Part shown: piece after piece, positions 3,039-63,438 of the stretch
How the letters are laid out: the number at the start of each line of letters is the position of its first letter
Position numbering within the stretch: the first letter of the stretch is position 1
Source: Periweissella fabaria
GTDB taxonomy: Bacteria; Bacillota; Bacilli; Lactobacillales; Lactobacillaceae
Length of the DNA stretch: 64,000 bases
Direction: 5' to 3'
Assembly: GCF_918814575.1 (NCBI RefSeq)
Contig: NZ_CAKKNS010000001.1
Location: forward strand, 1-64,000
Translations under genes and position numbers: made by a program
Notes under the pieces: generated by a model
What the model was told of the DNA's origin: nothing
What the model saw: only the letters and a program-made list of their open reading frames with translations
Databases searched by the model: none

Positions 3039-4400
3039 ATGGAAAGACGACTAACCAAGAAGGATTATCTTTATTTAGGTTCCATGTTATTTGGCCTTTT
3101 TTTTGGGGCAGGTAACTTGATTTTCCCAGTTAATATGGGACAACAAGCAGGTGCGAATGTTTTACTAGCCGATTTAGGTTTTTTAATTACCGCCATTGGA
3201 TTACCATTTTTAGGAATTATTGCAGTTGGAATTTCAAAGACGAACGGGCTATTTGATATTGCAACCCGTGTTAATCGTAAATATGCTTACATTTTTACAA
3301 TCTTATTATATTTAGTTATTGGGCCATTTTTTGCATTACCTCGGTTAGCTACTACTTCATTTGAAATCGGGGTAGTACCATTTGTAGCTCCACAGCAACA
3401 ATCACTAGTTTTAGCTATTTTTAGTACGGTATTCTTTGTTTGTGCTTGGTTATTAGCACTTAAGCCTAGCCGGTTACTTGAGTATGTTGGTAAGTATTTA
3501 AATCCAATTTTCTTACTGTTGTTAGCTGTTTTATTAGTGATGGCGTTTGTGCATCCTCTTGGTCAAGCAAGTCAAGGAGCCGTACAAAAAGCCTATGCGA
3601 GTCAACCATTTTTCACAGGCTTTTTACAAGGTTATAACACACTTGACGCTTTGGCATCATTAGCCTTTGGAATTATTATTGTGACATCTATCAAAGACCG
3701 CGGCGTAACTAAACCGGGAGTGATTGCCTTGGATACTTTTAAGTCAGGTGCGGTTAGTATTATCTTGATGGGGATAATTTACACGCTTTTATCATACTTA
3801 GGTGCCATGAGTATTGGTCACTTTAAGCTTAGTGCTAATGGGGGAATTGCTTTAGCACAAGTTGCCCGTTATTACTTAGGTACAGGCGGGAGTGTTTTAT
3901 TAGCATTGATCATTATTGTCGCATGTTTGAAGACAGCGGTTGGCTTGATTTCAGCTTTTTCACAAACATTTGTCGAATTATTTCCAAGTCGTTCATATGT
4001 AATGTTTGCAACCGTTGTTAGTATTTTACCGGCCATTTTTGCAAATGTCGGCTTAACAAATATCATTGCATACTCAGTCCCTTTATTGATGTTTTTATAT
4101 CCACTAGCAATTACATTAATTATTTTAACAATCTTTAGCCCGTTATATCACAATGATACACGGGTTTATCAGATGACAACCTATTTCACATTGATTGTAG
4201 CCTTTGTTGATGGGTTGAAAGCTAGTCCCGCATTTATTAGTCACGCGACACCAGTACTAGCATTAACAAATTTTGCCGATCACTACTTACCGTTTGAAGC
4301 GATTGGGATGGGATGGATTGTTCCAGGAATTATTGGTGCAATGATTGGTTTAATCTGGTATATGACTGATAAAAAACCAAAATTTTCATTGAATCAATAA
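3039..4400 (+). CDS. brnQ: Branched-chain amino acid transport system II carrier protein
   Basis: 453 residues and about 12 transmembrane helices, the usual size for the LIVCS family. The N-terminus has [20 protein letters not shown], typical of BrnQ, and [14 protein letters not shown] in the third helix region is also diagnostic. It takes up Leu, Ile and Val with Na+ or H+. The RBS GGAGGTG lies 6-7 bases before the ATG. No clear terminator separates it from the FMN riboswitch promoter at 4429-4457, so read-through into the rib leader is possible. Confidence 0.92.
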
Positions 4401-4428
4401 TGTGCTAACAAAAAATTAGTAAAAATGT

Positions 4429-4457
4429 TTGACAAGTAAATTTTTTATTGGTAGGAT
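4429..4457 (+). promoter_or_regulatory. Promoter of the riboflavin operon
   Basis: TTGACA at 4429-4434, a 17-bp spacer, then TAGGAT at 4452-4457. It starts transcription about 20 bases ahead of the FMN aptamer. Confidence 0.75.
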
Positions 4458-4481
4458 ACTCAAGTAATATTAATTTAAATA

Positions 4482-4608
4482 AGTCTTCGGGGCAGGGTGA
4501 AATTCCCGACCGACGGTGATAACGCAAGTTAAAGTCCGTGACCCGCTATTAAGCGGTTGACACAGTGAGATTCTGTGACCGACAGTAAAGTCTGGATGGG
4601 AGAAGACA
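4482..4608 (+). ncRNA. FMN riboswitch (RFN element)
   Basis: It shows the conserved RFN blocks in order: CTTCGGGGCAGGGTGAAATT, CCGACGGTG, AAGTCCGTGACCCG, GTGACCGACAGTAAAGTCTG and GATGGGAGAAGA. It senses FMN and controls ribD-ribE-ribBA-ribH. The hairpin at 4690-4722 is the expression platform. Transcripts should stop there when FMN is abundant. Confidence 0.96.
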
Positions 4609-4689
4609 ACAACAACCACGCTACCAGTGGGTTCTTTTTGAACAGAATACTGGGTAAGTGTAGTTTGTTTGCATACAAAATCCCATGAA

Positions 4690-4722
4690 TGCCCCCGGTG
4701 TGAAAGCACCAGGGGTATTTTT
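4690..4722 (+). terminator. FMN-riboswitch-controlled terminator
   Basis: CCCCCGGTG and CACCAGGGG pair around the loop TGAAAG, followed by ATTTTT, 28 bases before the ribD start. It is the regulated stop of the riboswitch. Confidence 0.88.
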
Positions 4723-4749
4723 GTGCCTCCAAACTAGAATGGAGAAGCG

Positions 4750-5790
4750 ATGAAAGATAACGAATACATGCAGATGGCGATTGAAGCAGCCAAACAAGCG
4801 CAGTGGCGAACGTGGAAAAATCCACGGGTGGGGGCAGTAATTGTTAAAGCAGATACGGTTTTGGCGGTGGGATACCACCATCAATATGGGGATGTCCATG
4901 CTGAAATTGATGCTTATCAGCAAGTAACTGATAAAAATCAATTAGTTGGGGCGACGATTTATGTCACTTTAGAACCATGTGCGCATACAGGTAAGCAACC
5001 ATCATGTGCTAGCGAAATGTTGGCATGGGTTCTCAAACGTGTCGTGGTTGGTCAAATCGACCCTAACCCACTCGTAACAATGCACGGCATTGAACGATTA
5101 AGGAAAGCTGGGGTTCAAGTCGACATATGGCGTACCCCAGTCAGTGAAGTAATCAATCCGGCATTTCACTACTTTTTTACGCATCAATTACCTTACGTAA
5201 CTCTCAAAGTAGCCCAAAGTTTCAACGGTAAAATTAATGGTGCACCAGATGAAGCAACGAAGATTACTACTGCAGAAGTTGATGTAGATAGTCATCGTCT
5301 ACGGGCTTACCAACAAGCAATTGTCGTCGGAAGTGCGACAGCCCTTATTGACCAACCTAGTCTAGCTGTTCGTAATGTTAGCACCGATCACCAGCCATTG
5401 CGGGTAATTATTGATCGGCGTGGTCGGCTAGCCGGTACAGATCAAGTACACCAACCAAACACGCTAGTGATTACGGAAAACGAGATGTTTGCCGCACAGT
5501 ATGAGCAAGTTCAATACCAAGCAACGGTAACACCACAGTCAGTCCGGCAATTGTTAGGAGGACTTGGCATTCAAGCAATGCTTGTTGAAGGTGGTAGTGA
5601 ACTACATGCTGCATTTGTGGCTGCGCAGGCATATCAAACCGTGGTGGTTTATCAAACAACCACGGTATTACCTAACGACGGTTTAAGCAGCTTTGCTAGG
5701 GATGCAGTGTTTGCATCCCTTGGTAACATTAGTGATGTTACGACGATTGATAATACTTTGAAAATTACGCTGAAACCGGAGGAACAATAA
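4750..5790 (+). CDS. ribD: Bifunctional pyrimidine deaminase / 5-amino-6-(5-phosphoribosylamino)uracil reductase
   Basis: 346 residues. The N-terminal deaminase domain (about 1-145) has the zinc-site motifs HAEIDAY and LEPCAHTGKQPSCA. The C-terminal reductase domain (about 150-346) contains LKVAQSFNGKI and LVEGGSELHAAF. It catalyses the second and third steps of riboflavin synthesis in the cytoplasm. It is the first gene of the operon, downstream of the riboswitch, with RBS GGAGAAG at 4741-4747. Its stop overlaps the ribE start by one base (TAATG), indicating translational coupling. Confidence 0.95.
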   Translation: MKDNEYMQMAIEAAKQAQWRTWKNPRVGAVIVKADTVLAVGYHHQYGDVHAEIDAYQQVTDKNQLVGATIYVTLEPCAHTGKQPSCASEMLAWVLKRVVVGQIDPNPLVTMHGIERLRKAGVQVDIWRTPVSEVINPAFHYFFTHQLPYVTLKVAQSFNGKINGAPDEATKITTAEVDVDSHRLRAYQQAIVVGSATALIDQPSLAVRNVSTDHQPLRVIIDRRGRLAGTDQVHQPNTLVITENEMFAAQYEQVQYQATVTPQSVRQLLGGLGIQAMLVEGGSELHAAFVAAQAYQTVVVYQTTTVLPNDGLSSFARDAVFASLGNISDVTTIDNTLKITLKPEEQ

Positions 5791-6377
5791 TGTTTACTGG
5801 AATTGTGGCTAATGTTGGTCGGATTACGCGCTTGGTTCGAAAACAACATGAAATGCAAATGGAAATTACGACTGATGATGCGTTCTTCGCAGATTTGACG
5901 ATTGGTCAAAGTGTAATGACTAATGGAGTTTGCTTAACAATTACTGCTAATACTGCAACGACCATGCAAGCAGACGTGATGATGCCAACTTTTGATACGA
6001 CTAATTTTAAATATTTAAAAATTAATGATGCGGTTCATTTGGAAAAAGCGATGTTGGCCAATGGGCGCTTTGATGGTCATGTTGTGATGGGACATGTGGA
6101 TGGTATTGGTAAAATTACTCAAAAACAATTAGTTAGCCAGACGTTATGGCTTGAAATATATGCACCAGAACAAATTAACCAAATCGTTAGTAAAGGATCA
6201 ATTGCGATTGATGGCATGAGTTTAACGGTTGTTAAAGTCAATGGACCACGTTTTACAGTGGCTTTAATTCCACATACGCAAGATGTAACGCTTTTAGCAA
6301 CTAAGCCAATTGGTGCGGTTGTCAATTTGGAAACTGATATATTAGCAAAATATTTATTGAGAGGCGTAACAAAATGA
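5790..6377 (+). CDS. ribE: Riboflavin synthase, alpha subunit
   Basis: 195 residues made of two homologous beta-barrel repeats, each opening with a lumazine-synthase-type motif. The N-terminus MFTGIVANVGRI and the internal MGHVDGIGKI and SIAIDGMSLTV are characteristic. It dismutates two 6,7-dimethyl-8-ribityllumazine molecules into riboflavin and the RibD product. It is coupled to ribD by a one-base overlap and to ribBA by a four-base ATGA overlap. Confidence 0.94.
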   Translation: MFTGIVANVGRITRLVRKQHEMQMEITTDDAFFADLTIGQSVMTNGVCLTITANTATTMQADVMMPTFDTTNFKYLKINDAVHLEKAMLANGRFDGHVVMGHVDGIGKITQKQLVSQTLWLEIYAPEQINQIVSKGSIAIDGMSLTVVKVNGPRFTVALIPHTQDVTLLATKPIGAVVNLETDILAKYLLRGVTK

Positions 6378-7576
6378 AGACAGAACAATTAGCAAGTGTT
6401 GCTAGAGTGAAAAATGCATTAGCGGCTATGAAACAAGGTGCGTTAGTGATTGTCGCCGATGATGCTCAACGTGAACATGAAGGGGATTTAATTGGGTTAG
6501 CTGCGTTTGTAAGTGAAGCGACAATTAACCAAATGTTAACTTTAGGACGGGGCCTCTTGTGTGTACCTATGACGGCGCAACGTGCAACAGACTTAGCATT
6601 AACACCGATGGTTAGCGATAATACTGAAAAATTTGGGACCAAGTTTACGTTAAGTGTTGATCATAAGGCGACGGTTACCGGAGTATCAGTGGCTGATCGG
6701 AAAATGACTGTTAAGGCATTAGCGGATGGTCAAAGTGTCGCCACCGACTTTGAACGGCCAGGGCATATCTTTCCGTTGATTGCTGATGATGGGGGTGTAC
6801 TAGTACGACCAGGACACACAGAAGCTGCCGTTGACTTAGCTAAGTTAGCGGGCGTACCACCTGTTAGTTATATCATTGAGATTTTAAATCCGGATGGTAC
6901 GATGGCACGTGAAGCGGAACTGGCTGAAATTGCACGGACCAATAATTTATTACAAATTTCTATTCAAGATATTATTACGTATCGGGAAGTAACGGAAGAT
7001 ATGGTATTACAACCAGGACCCACTGTTAAATTACCATCAGACCATGGAAATTTTAATTTAACCGCCTATCCTAATCCGGCTGGGGAACCTGATTTATTAA
7101 TCGCTAGTCAGAAGGTTAGTGCGGATATACCACTTGTACGATTACATTCGGAATGTTTTACAGGGGATGTTCTCGGCTCACAACGCTGTGAATGTGGGCC
7201 ACAATTACATGCTGCTTTAGCGGCCATTGATGCGCAAGGTGGTTATGTTGTATACCTCCGTCAAGAAGGTCGTGGAATTGGCCTAGCTGCTAAGTTACAA
7301 GCATATACTTTACAAGAAGGCGGCTTTGATACTTATGATGCGAATACGTTTTTAGGCCACGCCCCTGATGCGCGAACGTATGAACATGCAGCTGCAATTT
7401 TAAAAGCACAAGGAATTACACAGGTACGATTACTAACGAATAACCCTGAAAAAATTGCGGACTTAGAAAAGCATGGGATTACAGTTGTTGAACGGGTGCC
7501 CTTACAAGTCGGTGAAAATGCTAACAATGAAGCATATTTAGCAACTAAAAAGGCTAAATTTAAACATATGCTATAA
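6374..7576 (+). CDS. ribBA: 3,4-dihydroxy-2-butanone-4-phosphate synthase / GTP cyclohydrolase II
   Basis: 400 residues. The RibB domain (about 1-205) shows REHEGDL and RPGHIFPL followed by GHTEAAVDL. The RibA domain (about 210-400) has the zinc ligands in SECFTGDVLGSQRCECG and the GTP-binding GRGIGLA. It supplies both precursors of the pathway, the four-carbon unit and the pyrimidine from GTP. Catalytic residues appear intact in both halves. The start overlaps ribE by four bases. Confidence 0.95.
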   Translation: MKTEQLASVARVKNALAAMKQGALVIVADDAQREHEGDLIGLAAFVSEATINQMLTLGRGLLCVPMTAQRATDLALTPMVSDNTEKFGTKFTLSVDHKATVTGVSVADRKMTVKALADGQSVATDFERPGHIFPLIADDGGVLVRPGHTEAAVDLAKLAGVPPVSYIIEILNPDGTMAREAELAEIARTNNLLQISIQDIITYREVTEDMVLQPGPTVKLPSDHGNFNLTAYPNPAGEPDLLIASQKVSADIPLVRLHSECFTGDVLGSQRCECGPQLHAALAAIDAQGGYVVYLRQEGRGIGLAAKLQAYTLQEGGFDTYDANTFLGHAPDARTYEHAAAILKAQGITQVRLLTNNPEKIADLEKHGITVVERVPLQVGENANNEAYLATKKAKFKHML

Positions 7577-7627
7577 AAGCACTGCTTGATAATAAAAAAT
7601 GATAAATTAAACAAATGGAGAAAAATT

Positions 7628-8089
7628 ATGCGCGAAATTACAGGTTTATACACGAAACAAGATGTTAAGGTAGCGATTATTGCTAGTCGATTTAATTCAT
7701 TAATTACTAATGAATTAATTGGTGGTGCTCAAGATGCGTTAGTTCGCCACGGGGTTGCTGATGAAGATATTACGCTCATTTGGGTTCCGGGCGCTTTTGA
7801 AATTCCAGCGGTAGCTAAAAAAATTGCGGCTAGTGGTGAATACGATGGGGTGGTAACTCTCGGGGCGGTTATTCGTGGTGAAACGGCGCACTATGATTTA
7901 GTAATCAATGAAACAGCCAAGGGGATTGGTCAAGTAGCCTTAGATAGTAATATCCCAGTGGTCTTTGGGGTTGTTACTACTGATACCCTAGAACAAGCAC
8001 AACAACGTGCCGGGGCTAAAGCTGGTAATAAGGGTGGTGAAGTTGCAACCGCCTTACTTGAAATGATGAGTTTAGCAGATCAAATCTAA
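7628..8089 (+). CDS. ribH: 6,7-dimethyl-8-ribityllumazine synthase
   Basis: 153 residues from the ATG at 7628, which has the RBS TGGAG at 7616-7620. An upstream in-frame ATG at 7586 would add 14 residues but lacks an RBS. Motifs are SRFNSLIT near the N-terminus, VPGAFEIP, and [12 protein letters not shown] with the catalytic His. It forms the icosahedral or pentameric lumazine synthase that makes the RibE substrate. It is the last gene of the operon; the terminator at 8107-8146 follows. Confidence 0.94.
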
Positions 8090-8106
8090 GAGTTATAATA
8101 GTTGAT

Positions 8107-8146
8107 AAAAGTGGTCGAGAAAATTATTTTTCTCGACCACTTTTTA
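8107..8146 (+). terminator. Terminator of the riboflavin operon
   Basis: AAAGTGGTCGAGAAAA and TTTTCTCGACCACTTT form a long perfect stem followed by T residues. Confidence 0.93.
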
Positions 8147-8458
8147 TGTGTTTATTAAGATATTGATATTATATGAGCAATCTTCCTAATAATTATTATA
8201 AGATGAAAGTTTTGGATGGGGTAGTTTTATAATTATTTTAATTTGAAGTGTTATTGATGATAATCATTGTTATAAAAGGATTTAAAAGGGTTTTTGCATA
8301 TTTTAAAAATTAAAATTATATAAAAATAAAAATAAGTATAGCTTTTAAATTTATTTGGTAGTATTATAAATGCATAGCTTGATTGTTATTACTTTCACAA
8401 AAGTTTTAACAGAAAAAATAAGCTAAACTAATAAATTATTTAAAAGAGGTATTTAATC
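8147..8458 (+). other. AT-rich intergenic region upstream of the butanediol dehydrogenase
   Basis: 312 bases, very AT-rich, without a supported ORF. The RBS AAAGAGG at about 8443-8449 serves the next gene. Several -10-like TATTAT/TATAAA stretches occur near 8360-8370. I see no clear cre, riboswitch or inverted repeat. Confidence 0.6.
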
Positions 8459-9502
8459 ATGAAAGCAGCAGTATGGCACGGTGTTAAAGATGTTCGAGTT
8501 GAAGAAGTAGAATTGAAACCTTTAAAAGATGACGAAGTTGTAGTTCGCGTTGCTTGGGCTGGTATCTGTGGTTCTGACTTACACGAATACTTAGAAGGAC
8601 CAGTATTTATTCCAGTTGAAAAAGCGGAAGAATTAACTGGTGGCCATGCTCCACTTACAATGGGTCACGAATTTTCAGGGGTTATCGATAAAGTTGGTGC
8701 TAATGTAACTGACTGGAAAGTTGGTGATCATGTATCAATCAACCCTACTGTGACACACGAACTTCGCCCTGACGGTGTTGATGTTTATGATGGTTACGCC
8801 TTTATTGGTTTGAGCTGTGATGGGGGCTTTACTTCATTTGCGAACGTTCCTGCTAAAAACTTGCTTCACTTACCAAAAGATTTCCCATTGGACTTAGCTG
8901 CTACTATTGAACCAACAGCCGTTGCCGTTCAAGCAGTTAAAGAAGGTGATTTGAAGTTTGGTGAAACTGTTGCAATCTTTGGGGCTGGTCCTATCGGGGT
9001 ATTAGTTGCGGCAGCGGCCAAAGCAGCTGGTGCAACTAAGATTATTGCGGTTGATTTATCTGAAGTTCGGTTACAAAAAGCGCTTGAAATGGGTGCTACT
9101 GATGTGATCAACCCAGCTGAAGTTAACGCAGTTGAAAAGATTAAAGAACTTGTACCTGGTGGAGTTGATGTTTCATTTGAAGTTGCCGGTGTGCAACCAA
9201 CATTTGAACAAGCCATCGACGCTACTAAGGCTCGTGGTAACATGGTTATCGTTTCAATCTTTGCCCGTCCAATTCAATTTGACCCAATGCAATTGATGAA
9301 TGCCGGTGTAAAACTTACAACTACCATTGCTTACTCTAAGAAGACTTTCCAACAAACAGTTGACTTAGTAACTAGTGGCCAAATCGACGTTAAACCAGTT
9401 ATCACTAAGAAAATTGAACTTGATCAAATCGTTACTGATGGTTTTGATGCACTTGTAGCTGATAAGTCACAAGCTAAGATCTTGGTTGATTTTACTAAAT
9501 AA
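8459..9502 (+). CDS. 2,3-butanediol dehydrogenase, zinc-type medium-chain dehydrogenase
   Basis: 347 residues. The catalytic-zinc motifs CGSDLHEY and GHEFSGVI are present, as is the NAD-binding GAGPIGVL (about residue 176). It should reduce acetoin to 2,3-butanediol with NADH in the cytoplasm, regenerating NAD+. The four-cysteine structural-zinc lobe of classical alcohol dehydrogenases is replaced by a stretch without cysteines (NPTVTHELRPDGVDVYDG), as I recall for related lactic acid bacterial enzymes. Codon use is strongly biased, suggesting high expression. It is a single-gene unit. Confidence 0.85.
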   Translation: MKAAVWHGVKDVRVEEVELKPLKDDEVVVRVAWAGICGSDLHEYLEGPVFIPVEKAEELTGGHAPLTMGHEFSGVIDKVGANVTDWKVGDHVSINPTVTHELRPDGVDVYDGYAFIGLSCDGGFTSFANVPAKNLLHLPKDFPLDLAATIEPTAVAVQAVKEGDLKFGETVAIFGAGPIGVLVAAAAKAAGATKIIAVDLSEVRLQKALEMGATDVINPAEVNAVEKIKELVPGGVDVSFEVAGVQPTFEQAIDATKARGNMVIVSIFARPIQFDPMQLMNAGVKLTTTIAYSKKTFQQTVDLVTSGQIDVKPVITKKIELDQIVTDGFDALVADKSQAKILVDFTK

Positions 9503-57875: not shown

Positions 57876-58349
57876 ATGAAAAAACAATTGACACTCGATG
57901 CAGTGCTCGTTTTAGTGGTTATTATCGCTGATCAAGTATTAAAAGCATACATTCAAGGGACTAATTTAGGAATTCACGGTAATAACCTTGTTGAACGTCC
58001 TTTAATTCCAGGGGTTGTAAATATTACGAAACTTTTTAATAATGGCGCCGCTTGGAGTTTTTTTGCGGGGCAACAATGGTTCTTTTGGATTGTGACGATT
58101 ATTGCGATTTTAGCGATTATGTACACATATATTAAAATGCGGGGCCAACGATTATTACAATCATCATTGGCGTTAATTTTTGCTGGAACGCTTGGTAATT
58201 TTTTTGATCGAGCCCGCCAAGGATACGTTGTTGATATGTTTGATCTTAAATTTATTAACTTCCCGATTTTTAACATCGCCGACATGGCACTTACATTTGG
58301 GGTGATTTTCCTCTTTGTAGCAATTTTACGAGATAAGGATTTAAATTAA
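57876..58349 (+). CDS. lspA: Lipoprotein signal peptidase
   Basis: 157 residues from the ATG at 57876, with RBS GAAAGGA at 57857-57863; the longer ORF from 57747 lies inside ebsA. Four transmembrane helices, and the two catalytic Asp in GNFFDRARQGYVVDMFD and FNIADMALTFG. It cleaves prolipoproteins after lipid attachment. The stop overlaps the rluD start by one base. Confidence 0.94.
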   Translation: MKKQLTLDAVLVLVVIIADQVLKAYIQGTNLGIHGNNLVERPLIPGVVNITKLFNNGAAWSFFAGQQWFFWIVTIIAILAIMYTYIKMRGQRLLQSSLALIFAGTLGNFFDRARQGYVVDMFDLKFINFPIFNIADMALTFGVIFLFVAILRDKDLN

Positions 58350-59278
58350 TGACAGAAACATTTACAGTTACAGATGAAACAGGCCGTTTAGATAAGGTTT
58401 TGGGTGATCATTTTAGTGAATATACTCGTTCACAATTAAATGATTGGATTAAAAAAGACTTGGTGACGGTTAATGGAAAAACGGTTAAAGCTAAATATAG
58501 TGTAAAAACTGGGGATGTTGTTGATATTAATCCACCAGCACCGGTTGAATTAGATTTAGTTGCCGAAGATATTCCGTTGGATATTGTCTATGAAGATGAT
58601 GATGTCATTGTAGTTAATAAGCCCCAAGGAATGGTTGTCCACCCGGCCGCTGGTCATAGCAATGGGACACTAGTGAATGCGTTATTACATCATTCACCAC
58701 TTTCAACAATTAATGGGACCTTTCGGCCTGGAATTGTCCACCGTATTGATAAGGATACTTCTGGTTTATTGATGGTTGCTAAAAATGACCATGCACACCA
58801 AGCATTGCAAGCACAATTAAAAGCTAAGAAGAATTTACGTGAATACTATGCATTAGTGCACGGTACAATTAACGAACATCAAGGGACTATTAATGTTCCT
58901 TTAGGGCGTTCAATGAGTGACCGGAAGAAGCAGGCGGCTGTGAAAGATGGCCGTGATGCAGTGACGCATTTTACTGTTTTGAAGCACTTTGATGGCTTTA
59001 CACTCGTTAAAGCGGTCTTAGAAACTGGTCGGACACACCAAATTCGGGTCCACATGGCGTATATTGGACATCCGGTTGCTGGTGATCCGCTCTATGGTCC
59101 ACGAAAGACGTTGGCAGGTAATGGGCAGTACCTACATGCTAAAACACTAGGATTGACACAACCAACAACGGGGAAAGAACTAGTATTTGAGACGCAACTA
59201 CCAGGGTACTTCAAAGATGCGCTCAATAAGTTGACGCCACTTGAAGATGATTTAGATTTTGATATAAATAATTGCTAG
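58349..59278 (+). CDS. rluD: Ribosomal large subunit pseudouridine synthase RluD-type
   Basis: 309 residues. An N-terminal S4 RNA-binding domain (about 10-75, RLDKVLGDHFSEYTRSQLNDWIKKDLVTVNG) precedes the catalytic domain with HRIDKDTSGLLMVAKND (nucleophilic Asp) and TGRTHQIRVHMAYIGHPVAGD. It forms pseudouridines in 23S rRNA. It lies in an operon with lspA and 50 bases upstream of pyrR. Confidence 0.93.
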   Translation: MTETFTVTDETGRLDKVLGDHFSEYTRSQLNDWIKKDLVTVNGKTVKAKYSVKTGDVVDINPPAPVELDLVAEDIPLDIVYEDDDVIVVNKPQGMVVHPAAGHSNGTLVNALLHHSPLSTINGTFRPGIVHRIDKDTSGLLMVAKNDHAHQALQAQLKAKKNLREYYALVHGTINEHQGTINVPLGRSMSDRKKQAAVKDGRDAVTHFTVLKHFDGFTLVKAVLETGRTHQIRVHMAYIGHPVAGDPLYGPRKTLAGNGQYLHAKTLGLTQPTTGKELVFETQLPGYFKDALNKLTPLEDDLDFDINNC

Positions 59279-59304
59279 TCGGTTGGGTGTAATTAAACGA
59301 CTAG

Positions 59305-59841
<537 letters not shown>

Positions 59842-59875: not shown

Positions 59876-60952
59876 GTGAGCAAACGCTATTTAATTTTAG
59901 CTGATGGCAGTATTTTTGAAGGTGAGGGCTTTGGCTCGCGTGCAACAACTTTTGGCCATATTGTCTTCAATACTGCTATGACTGGCTACCAAGAAATTAT
60001 CACGAATCAAATTTATCATAATCAAATCATCGTTTTTGGTGCCCCAACAATTGGTGCGGGTGGTATTAATCACGATGCATATGAATCAATTATGCCGACC
60101 GCTAAAGGTGTGATTGTCCGAGATGTTGCCGAAGTTTCAACTAATCGGCAAAAAAGAATGAATCTTAATGAATATCTTGACTATCATAATATTCCTGGTA
60201 TTGCTGGGTTGGATACGCGCGCATTAATTCGGCATCTTCGTAAGACTGGTCCCCAAAAGGCTAGTATTGTTGATTTTCCAGATGAACATGCTTTTGATCA
60301 ATTAAATGCAACGGTGTTAACCAATCAACAAGTAGCTGCCGTTGCAACACCTAGAGCATATCCTAATCCCGGTACAGGAAGCACGGTAGTTGTGATTGAC
60401 TTTGGTTTAAAACATGGTATTTTACGCCAATTAAGTCAACGTGATGCTGATGTAACGGTCTTGCCTTACAAAACGGATGCTGAAGCTGTCTTGAGTTTAG
60501 ATCCCGACGGGGTAATTTTTTCAACGGGTCCAGGTGATCCACGTGATTTACCTGCTTCAGTGATTGAACTAATGCGTGAATTACAAACCCGTGTGCCATT
60601 ACTGGGGATTGGTTTAGGGCATGAAATTTTTGCCTTGGCTAATAATGCCCAGTTAATTCAATTACCATTTGAACATCATGGTACGAATCACCCGGTGAAA
60701 GAAGTTATTACCAATGCCGTTTTATACGTACCACAAGGGGCTGGGTATGCAATTGATCCTGCTTCAATTAATCATGATCAGTTAATTGTGACACATTTAG
60801 ATTTGATTGATGATTCAATTCAAGGACTACGCCATCGTGATTATCCGGCCTTTTCAGTTGCCTTTTTCCCTGATTCAGCACCAGGACCATTAGAAGGTAC
60901 AACTGTAATTGATGAATTTTTTGATATGATGGAGACAAAGGATAGGTTTTAA
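59876..60952 (+). CDS. carA: Carbamoyl-phosphate synthetase small subunit homologue without glutaminase triad
   Basis: 358 residues; GTG start with RBS AAGGAG at 59861-59866. The N-terminal CarA domain (FNTAMTGYQEIIT) and the class I amidotransferase fold (STGPGDP) are clear. The nucleophile motif GICLGHQ reads GIGLGHE, with Gly at residue 246, and the SxQxHPEASPGP motif reads SVAFFPDSAPGP, so His is Phe331 and Glu is Asp333. All three triad residues are lost, so glutamine hydrolysis is not expected. The reading frame is intact and other parts are well conserved. It could allow ammonia-only synthesis if CarB were active, but CarB is degenerate too. Two bases separate it from carB. Confidence 0.88.
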   Translation: MSKRYLILADGSIFEGEGFGSRATTFGHIVFNTAMTGYQEIITNQIYHNQIIVFGAPTIGAGGINHDAYESIMPTAKGVIVRDVAEVSTNRQKRMNLNEYLDYHNIPGIAGLDTRALIRHLRKTGPQKASIVDFPDEHAFDQLNATVLTNQQVAAVATPRAYPNPGTGSTVVVIDFGLKHGILRQLSQRDADVTVLPYKTDAEAVLSLDPDGVIFSTGPGDPRDLPASVIELMRELQTRVPLLGIGLGHEIFALANNAQLIQLPFEHHGTNHPVKEVITNAVLYVPQGAGYAIDPASINHDQLIVTHLDLIDDSIQGLRHRDYPAFSVAFFPDSAPGPLEGTTVIDEFFDMMETKDRF

Positions 60953-60954
60953 CT

Positions 60955-63438
60955 ATGGCAAAAAAAGCGCTTAAAAAAGTCCTCTTAATTGGTGGTGGCG
61001 CCAATGATTTTGGCCGTGAGTCAGAACTTGACGTCGCTACGCACCAAGTTATGCATACTTTTGCTGACTTAGGGATTGCAACCATTTTAATTGATGATAA
61101 TCCTTATTCATTAAGTTTAGAAGATTCACATGCAACAACCTATATTCAACCAATTACTGTTGAAAATGTGCGCAATATTATTGAATTTGAACAACCCGAT
61201 GCAGTATACCCAGCGGTTGGTGGGACAACTGCCTTTCAGGTGCTCGGTGATTTATTTGCTCAATTTGATTATCCTAATCTAGAAATTTTGGGGATGAGCT
61301 TAGATACAGTTAATATGGTTAATAATCCGGCCCTCTTAGCGAAGCGCTTACGTCAAATAGGTGAACCAGTTATTTCTTCACAAGTGGTAAATAGTGTTGA
61401 AGCGGCATTTGATATTGCCCGTGAAATTGGTTTTCCGGTTAATATCAAACCAATGGCACCAAAGTTTGAGGCTAGTCGGCATACGGCAGAGGATTCAGAA
61501 ACATTAGATTTAGTTCTAAAAATTGCTTTAAAGCAAAGTCGTATTAAGCAAGTGGTTATTTCACAAGGGATTAATGGTCTTCGTGAAGTTGGCGTCCAAG
61601 TGATGCGCGATCATCACGATGTTAATATGCTAATTGGGGCGGTTGAAGATATGGATCCAGTTGGCATTCACGCCGCTGATTCCATTCTAGTAACCCCTGT
61701 ACAAACACTAAGTGATCGGGAATTTCAGCGCTTACGAATGGCGGCTTTTCGGATTATGCGGGGGCTAGATATTGTTGGGACAGCCCATATTCAATTTGCA
61801 TTAGATCCCCGAACTGATAGATATTATATTATTAAAGTTAGTCCATATTTTGATTCAACCAGTACGCTTGTGTCACGTTCAACGGGTTATCCGTTAGCAA
61901 TCGTAGCGGCGCATGTGTGTGTGAATATTAATTTAACGCGGATTGTGTTACCAAATAATTTTGCAAAGAAAATGGCGATCATTGAACCAGTTATGGATCG
62001 AATTGTCGTTAAGTTTCCGGTATTTGCTTTTGGTGAAATTGAAAACGCTGGTATTAAAGTCAATCGGCGGTTAAATACGATGCAAAAATCAGCGGGTTCG
62101 ACAATTGGGATTGGCCGTTCAATTGAAGAAGCCCTTGAAAAAGCAATTCGAGCAGCTCATTTCAGTAACCGGGTATTTTCACCAGATCTAATGAGTGCCT
62201 TACCCGAAAATGATTTAATCCAGCAATTAATCCACCCCCGTGATAATCGAATTTTATTATTGATTGAAGCGTTGCGGCGTGGATATACAATTGATGAATT
62301 AGCTGAATTAACAAAAATTGACGAATACTATTTCTACAAGTTACAAAATATCATGGAATTAGAGCGGGCGGTTAAGCGTAATCCAGGTGATTTAGCATTA
62401 CTCCAAGACGCTAAGTATTATGGACTCTCAGATGGTTTAATTGCCAAGTTATGGAATCAAGATTTTGATGATGTGCGCCAATTGGCTAAAAATAATGATT
62501 TACAGCCAACATTCAAAGCCATTGAACCATCAGCTGGCGAATTTCCCGAAGATGTGACGGTATATTACAGTACCTTTGAACAAGAAAATGAATCAGAGCG
62601 CCTCGGTGATAAGTCGGTGCTCGTTGTTGGAACCGGCGCTTTCCGATTAGGCGATGGTGCAAGTGGTTCCTATGTAACATCAACTATTTTGGACGAAATT
62701 CGTGCTAATGGCTTTCAATCAATCATTATTAACAATAATCCTAATGATTTAACTTTGATGATTCAATTTGCCGATAAACAATATATTGAACCGCTGGAAA
62801 TTTCAGATATTATGAACGTTGTGGAATTAGAACAGCCGGCGTTTGTATTAGTACCAGGTAATCGGATTAAGTTAATCGCAGCCTTGCGAGAACGTAATGT
62901 GCATGTATGTGTGATTCCAAAGGATAAGTATACAGCTCCTGGTCCGCAACATGATGAACGAGAATTTGCTATTAACTACTATTTCGATGGCACCGATGTT
63001 CATCCAATTACGATTACTGAACATGTAACTGGTAAGCTGATGTTTGATAAAAATGTATATACACAAATTTATCAACAAAAAATTCCTAAATTACAATTGC
63101 GGGATACCTCGCCGGGGCTATATCAATTAATAACGAATCAGTTACCTTTAAGTACTGATTTAGGCGAGTATCAACTCCGACCAGTACCATTTGGACAGAT
63201 TGCCTTTTTAAACAAAGTAACGGGTATTAATTGGATTCGGTTAATGATTCGTAATATTTTAGGCTGTCAAACCGACGCTGACAAAGTATTACTTGCGCGT
63301 TTACCAGATGTTAATTTTAAACATCAAGTAGCGGAAATGGTTAGTAATAATACAGATTTCTTCCAACATTTGCAGCCAGCAGGTGAGCTAGATTCGACCC
63401 AGTTTGAAATGGGTGTCGCAATGCATTTAATCAAATAA
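60955..63438 (+). CDS. carB: Degenerate, truncated carbamoyl-phosphate synthetase large subunit homologue
   Basis: 827 residues against about 1060 in active CarB. In the first unit GSGPIxIGQxxEFDY reads GGGANDFGRESELDV. The Arg-Pro plus glycine-rich ATP-grasp loop reads KPMAPKFEASRH (165-176), and the metal/ATP motif IEVNPR reads IKVSPY (293-298). The oligomerisation domain (about 420-545, EALRRGYTIDELAELTKID) is well conserved. In the second unit GSGPIRIGQGVEFDY reads GTGAFRLGDGASGSY; most of the ATP-grasp domain is deleted, though a remnant AFLNKVTGINW near residue 750 aligns with its end. The C-terminal allosteric domain is absent, and no remnant follows the stop. There is no internal stop or frameshift. 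Catalysis is not expected; a structural or regulatory role is inference. Confidence 0.85.
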   Translation: MAKKALKKVLLIGGGANDFGRESELDVATHQVMHTFADLGIATILIDDNPYSLSLEDSHATTYIQPITVENVRNIIEFEQPDAVYPAVGGTTAFQVLGDLFAQFDYPNLEILGMSLDTVNMVNNPALLAKRLRQIGEPVISSQVVNSVEAAFDIAREIGFPVNIKPMAPKFEASRHTAEDSETLDLVLKIALKQSRIKQVVISQGINGLREVGVQVMRDHHDVNMLIGAVEDMDPVGIHAADSILVTPVQTLSDREFQRLRMAAFRIMRGLDIVGTAHIQFALDPRTDRYYIIKVSPYFDSTSTLVSRSTGYPLAIVAAHVCVNINLTRIVLPNNFAKKMAIIEPVMDRIVVKFPVFAFGEIENAGIKVNRRLNTMQKSAGSTIGIGRSIEEALEKAIRAAHFSNRVFSPDLMSALPENDLIQQLIHPRDNRILLLIEALRRGYTIDELAELTKIDEYYFYKLQNIMELERAVKRNPGDLALLQDAKYYGLSDGLIAKLWNQDFDDVRQLAKNNDLQPTFKAIEPSAGEFPEDVTVYYSTFEQENESERLGDKSVLVVGTGAFRLGDGASGSYVTSTILDEIRANGFQSIIINNNPNDLTLMIQFADKQYIEPLEISDIMNVVELEQPAFVLVPGNRIKLIAALRERNVHVCVIPKDKYTAPGPQHDEREFAINYYFDGTDVHPITITEHVTGKLMFDKNVYTQIYQQKIPKLQLRDTSPGLYQLITNQLPLSTDLGEYQLRPVPFGQIAFLNKVTGINWIRLMIRNILGCQTDADKVLLARLPDVNFKHQVAEMVSNNTDFFQHLQPAGELDSTQFEMGVAMHLIK

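Follow-up and report, generated by a model that had tools for sequence, protein, structure and literature searches.

A CarA-CarB homologue pair adjoining pyrR in Lactobacillaceae as a putative regulatory pseudo-CPS

The locus in the Periweissella fabaria window

The window analysed here, a stretch of 64,000 nucleotides from the Periweissella fabaria genome (G000), carries a gene for a homologue of CarA, the small subunit of carbamoyl-phosphate synthase (CPS), that is preceded by pyrR and followed by a gene for a CarB homologue. These two homologues and their orthologues are labelled dead CarA and dead CarB throughout. The features of the locus are as follows.

57876..58349, + strand: lspA, an ORF with its start read from the sequence and named by sequence resemblance; flank marking the locus
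58349..59278, + strand: rluD-type pseudouridine synthase gene, the kept upstream neighbour; function named by sequence resemblance
59329..59841, + strand: pyrR (NCBIfam PyrR, 278 bits against a cut-off of 218)
59876..60952, + strand: dead carA, a CarA homologue whose glutaminase site is dead
60275..60379, + strand: interdomain linker of dead CarA (residues 134-168), from column entropy in dead against intact CarAs
60611..60613, + strand: codon of Gly246, which replaces the nucleophile Cys; Gly in 81 of 81 orthologues
60866..60868, + strand: codon of Phe331, which replaces the catalytic His; Phe in 81 of 81 orthologues
60872..60874, + strand: codon of Asp333, at the position of the triad Glu; Asp is common in intact CarAs of the family too
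60955..63438, + strand: dead carB, a CarB homologue of 827 amino acids, starting two bases after dead carA

As the sequence-only reading had stated, the ORF of dead carA (59876-60952) is intact; it encodes 358 amino acids from a GTG start. The product scores above the cut-offs of the NCBIfam CarA equivalogs (419.7 bits on NF009475, cut-off 221; 351.9 bits on TIGR01368, cut-off 307), matches the family model over its full length and can be aligned with E. coli CarA from one end to the other. The pyrR of the window is the one PyrR found in the genome. No Rfam match to a PyrR attenuator leader was found directly upstream of it (58900-59420); weak matches lie upstream of pyrR in G001 and G069. A second, intact carAB lies inside the pyr operon on contig 7, where two tandem matches to the PyrR-binding site, both below the Rfam gathering score, precede pyrB (G000:C7:97198-97319 and 97347-97444), and on contig 8 one such match precedes a permease gene (71443-71559). 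The window also contains an FMN riboswitch at 4479-4611 (119.6 bits).

Catalytic residues of the two subunits

Alignment with E. coli CarA placed Gly246 of the dead CarA at Cys269, the nucleophile, and Phe331 at His353, the catalytic His, which confirmed both assignments made from the sequence alone; the Cys-His catalytic pair of a class I glutaminase is thus absent. The acidic third residue of the triad is present as Asp333 at the position of Glu355. This Asp had been counted as a third loss, but it occupies the position in nearly all Lactobacillaceae CarAs that have both Cys and His (motif SVQFHPDAAPG), including the second CarA of the window genome, and because Asp is normal in this family, two triad residues have been lost and not three. 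The losses had also been called independent, which fails because the Gly/Phe pair is shared by descent throughout a large clade. Elsewhere in the glutamine site, Ser47 has become Ile and Gln273 has become Glu, and the N311-H312-G313 region is altered (E. coli numbering). The predicted structure of the dead CarA was of middling quality (pLDDT 72) and was set aside.

The same Gly and Phe occur in the orthologues of four other Periweissella genomes (86-99% identical), and Gly246, Phe331 and Asp333 are invariant in 81 orthologues, which were taken as the best profile matches, a choice that favours uniformity, using search patterns without the triad. These identical residues exclude sequencing error and strain-specific decay of dead carA. 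All four codons are used for the invariant Gly (GGT 24, GGC 24, GGG 18, GGA 15). In the wider set of dead CarAs, the catalytic His position holds Ser or Phe, and a family scan with the exact motif undercounts, since AIGLGHE variants are missed.

The dead CarB has 827 residues against about 1060 in a usual CarB, and scores below the cut-off of TIGR01369 (514 bits against 1027). At R129, G175, G176, E299, N301 and R303 of ATP-grasp 1 (E. coli numbering), the window protein has P, F, E, K, S and Y, respectively. In all 78 orthologues of dead CarB, Glu299, a metal ligand of ATP-grasp 1, is Lys or Arg, Arg303 is Tyr or Phe, and Arg129 is lost; most have also lost Asn301 and the glycine loop. His243, Asp246 and Ser247 persist in every one of the 78 and Glu215 in 77. 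Half of ATP-grasp 2 is deleted (about 100 residues), and the allosteric domain is absent, with nothing past E. coli residue 922. The oligomerisation domain (PF02787) is kept within a highly conserved stretch, and the C-terminal third is strongly variable. The predicted structure (pLDDT 86.9, pTM 0.90) matched E. coli CarB (1A9X) over residues 4-922 with a Z of 41.6 and an rmsd of 2.5 over 790 residues. The sequences of both subunits speak against the pair being able to make carbamoyl phosphate. With the one correction of Asp333, the dead CarA of the sequence-only reading stands, whereas the dead CarB, the active CarAB paralogue and the linkage to pyrR had been missed.

Conservation, distribution and retention without the pathway

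When the window genome was compared with those of four other Periweissella, dead carA gave a dN/dS of 0.013-0.056, the intact carA of these genomes one of 0.031-0.196, and dead carB one of 0.038-0.154, although these values are rough because dS was often above 1. Over 36 pairs from nine genera, dead and intact CarAs were about equally conserved (mean identity 61.8% and 61.3%). The linker of dead CarA (residues 134-168) had a mean column entropy of 0.82 against 2.19 in intact CarAs, and the nucleophile region was less conserved in the dead than in the intact proteins; judged by these column comparisons, the linker has gained the constraint that the active site has lost. Decay with random stops in relatives, which the sequence-only reading had raised against itself, was looked for, and zero stops were found in dead carA of the 81 orthologues; dead carB is full-length wherever the contig permits, except for two short reads. 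The dead pair is under purifying selection. The suggestion that selection acts on something other than glutamine hydrolysis gains support from the low dN/dS in close relatives, from the invariant Gly written with four codons and from retention throughout the family.

The named loci come from Periweissella, Weissella, Leuconostoc, Pediococcus, Lactiplantibacillus, Levilactobacillus, Secundilactobacillus, Paucilactobacillus and Furfurilactobacillus. The rluD-type gene is present at 79 of 80 such loci, pyrR adjoins at 75, and the full order of rluD, pyrR, dead carA and dead carB is found at 73. The five loci from which pyrR is missing are all from Paucilactobacillus and still have the dead pair; G009 also has the pair, with pyrR not at the locus. 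In those genomes with pyrR-less loci that were checked, PyrR was found elsewhere. Among 33 Lactobacillaceae genera (genomes G000-G036), a Gly-type CarA, with Gly for Cys, occurs in 26, and 25 of these 26 have a PyrR match; no such match was found in G021 (87% complete), which has a dead CarA. Most genomes contain both an active and a dead pair. The 'carB' of Leuconostoc MLST was considered as a dead gene and ruled out, its locus spanning 3180 bases, which is the size of an intact carB (PMC4063691).

The 31 Gly-type sequences around that of the window form one clade (support 100/100). A single origin of all Gly-type CarAs was considered, but the divergent sequences of G007, G012, G014, G018, G024, G025 and G030 fall outside this clade. 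The tree needs four changes, and the starred branches force two; with the long branches present it may reflect either one catalytic loss or several. In G014, G018, G024, G025 and G030, the divergent carA is at or near the same place, with a uracil permease (assigned by Pfam in two genera and by resemblance in the others) between pyrR, or rluD, and carA; in four of the five, CarB has about 1060 residues and has lost catalytic residues either in ATP-grasp 2 or in both ATP-grasps. As in Bacillus subtilis, with the order lspA-ylyB-pyrR-pyrP-...-pyrAA-pyrAB, many Firmicutes have their pyr operon where the dead pair is found (lspA-rluD-pyrR). The pair is thus probably a remnant of an old pyrAA-pyrAB pair, with carbamoyl phosphate now made by a different carAB in a pyr operon elsewhere.

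Two genomes differ from this pattern. In G036 (C41:58000-67748, - strand; carA 7458-8561, carB 4237-7437), the CarA, the only one found in the genome, keeps Cys and has lost His (SVQFLPNASPG), CarB has lost the metal ligands of both ATP-grasp domains, and PyrB is still present; this CPS is apparently dying by a different route. In G013, the rluD-pyrR-carA-carB locus (C1:1087000-1097000) looks degraded: PyrR is below the cut-off and contains a stop, CarB has 659 amino acids, and no PyrB over the cut-off was found in the genome. Because PyrR, CarA and CarB all appear degraded there, the function can evidently be lost.

An intact dead pair and PyrR are kept in four species (G017, G019, G023 and G027; completeness about 99% each) whose genomes gave neither PyrB nor CarB above the cut-off, nor any PyrC or active CarA. 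Furfurilactobacillus siliginis is among the species with no active CPS. In G023, fragments of a catalytic-type CPS (C75:27000-37000; CarA 244 aa, CarB 241 aa) exist beside the intact dead pair, so this catalytic-type copy has decayed where the dead pair has stayed whole. In three of the four species, permease or nucleoside genes have a PyrR-type RNA site in front of them: a uracil/xanthine permease in G017 and G027, and a cytosine/purine permease in G017. The site in G019 (C52) is before a nucleoside deoxyribosyltransferase gene, which to our knowledge has not been described as a PyrR RNA target. Matches to PyrR RNA sites in G023 were weak only.

Possible roles of the pair and comparison with known systems

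L. plantarum has two PyrR proteins, 63% identical, of which PyrR1 belongs to the pyr operon and the other is encoded directly upstream of dead carA. By elimination, the PyrR next to dead carA would be PyrR2, and the pyrR of the window is its positional orthologue. An L. plantarum strain with pyrR2 deleted reportedly needs high CO2, or pyrimidines plus arginine. PyrR2 mediates the inorganic-carbon response of the pyr genes in this species (Bacteriol. 188:8607; reference in PMC5712122). A search for literature on pyrAa2, lp_1780/1781/1783 or a CPS pseudo-enzyme found nothing relevant.

The linkage to pyrR, the retention with PyrR and its targets in species without the pathway, and the selection on a dead complex lead us to propose, at a probability of about 0.5, that the pair is a putative regulatory pseudo-CPS working with PyrR. 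A CPS complex would have lost its glutaminase, both ATP-grasp activities and its allosteric domain, and selection would have kept it as a regulatory protein. The dead CarA and CarB would form a complex, contact PyrR and bind a small ligand, and most likely would alter the action of PyrR on its RNA targets, namely the leaders of the pyr operon and of the uracil permease gene. The location beside pyrR may, however, be inherited operon order only.

A narrower proposal makes the pair a sensor of inorganic carbon, or of a metabolite linked to it, that would signal to PyrR2 and so account for the CO2 control of the pyr genes. On this view, RNA attenuation by PyrR in Lactobacillaceae would have the dead CPS complex as its sensor arm, and the complex would be the missing link between PyrR2 and the inorganic-carbon response. 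The carbon response ascribed to PyrR2 and the position of its gene directly upstream of dead carA fit this, but all 78 dead CarBs have lost Arg303, presumably the counterpart of the Arg that binds bicarbonate in biotin carboxylase, so that carbon could be sensed only at a new site. For that reason we weight carbon sensing below a general partnership with PyrR and consider it unlikely.

Less likely again is a regulatory or decoy subunit that would enter the oligomers of active CarAB and tune their activity; it would suit the kept oligomerisation domain and the presence of both pairs in most genomes, but in the four pathway-less species, where PyrB and PyrC are absent as well, the intact dead pair has no active CarA or CarB found beside it to tune. 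The reshaped sites might instead have acquired a new enzymatic activity, for example on another carboxylate or a nucleotide, and the directional changes fixed in all 78 dead CarBs (Glu299 to Lys or Arg, Arg303 to Tyr or Phe), together with the kept Glu215, His243, Asp246 and Ser247, are in its favour. With no nucleophile in CarA, no metal ligands in ATP-grasp 1 and ATP-grasp 2 not intact, we hold such an activity to be the more improbable of these two. A neutrally drifting relic kept by chance agrees with the variable C-terminal third of dead CarB and the decayed look of the G013 lineage, but is close to refuted by dN/dS far below 1, by dead carA free of stops in all 81 orthologues and by its being kept in 26 of 33 genera.

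If the pair works with PyrR as proposed, a complete two-subunit enzyme would have been turned into a regulator, which would bear on the long-open question of how PyrR2 responds to inorganic carbon in L. plantarum. In addition, since family models call these genes CPS in many lactic acid bacteria despite their apparent incapacity, automatic annotation and metabolic models may credit an organism with a reaction it lacks, a risk that is clearest in species with the dead pair as sole copy.

The dead pair resembles CarAB/PyrAA-PyrAB (TIGR01368, TIGR01369) in domain order, in the fold of CarB and in the operon order carA-carB, and differs from it in a CarA without Cys and His and in a CarB in which ATP-grasp 1 is without metal ligands, ATP-grasp 2 is partly deleted and the allosteric domain is absent. 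Human CPS1 (PDB 5DOT/5DOU) is an ammonia-dependent CPS with a non-functional glutaminase triad; in that enzyme, however, both ATP-grasp domains are active and free ammonia is used, whereas the dead CarB appears incapable of either. In the PyrR2 system of L. plantarum, the second PyrR of the genome adjoins dead carA in the same way, and the accessible part of the literature on that system credits PyrR2 and makes no mention of the dead CPS genes.
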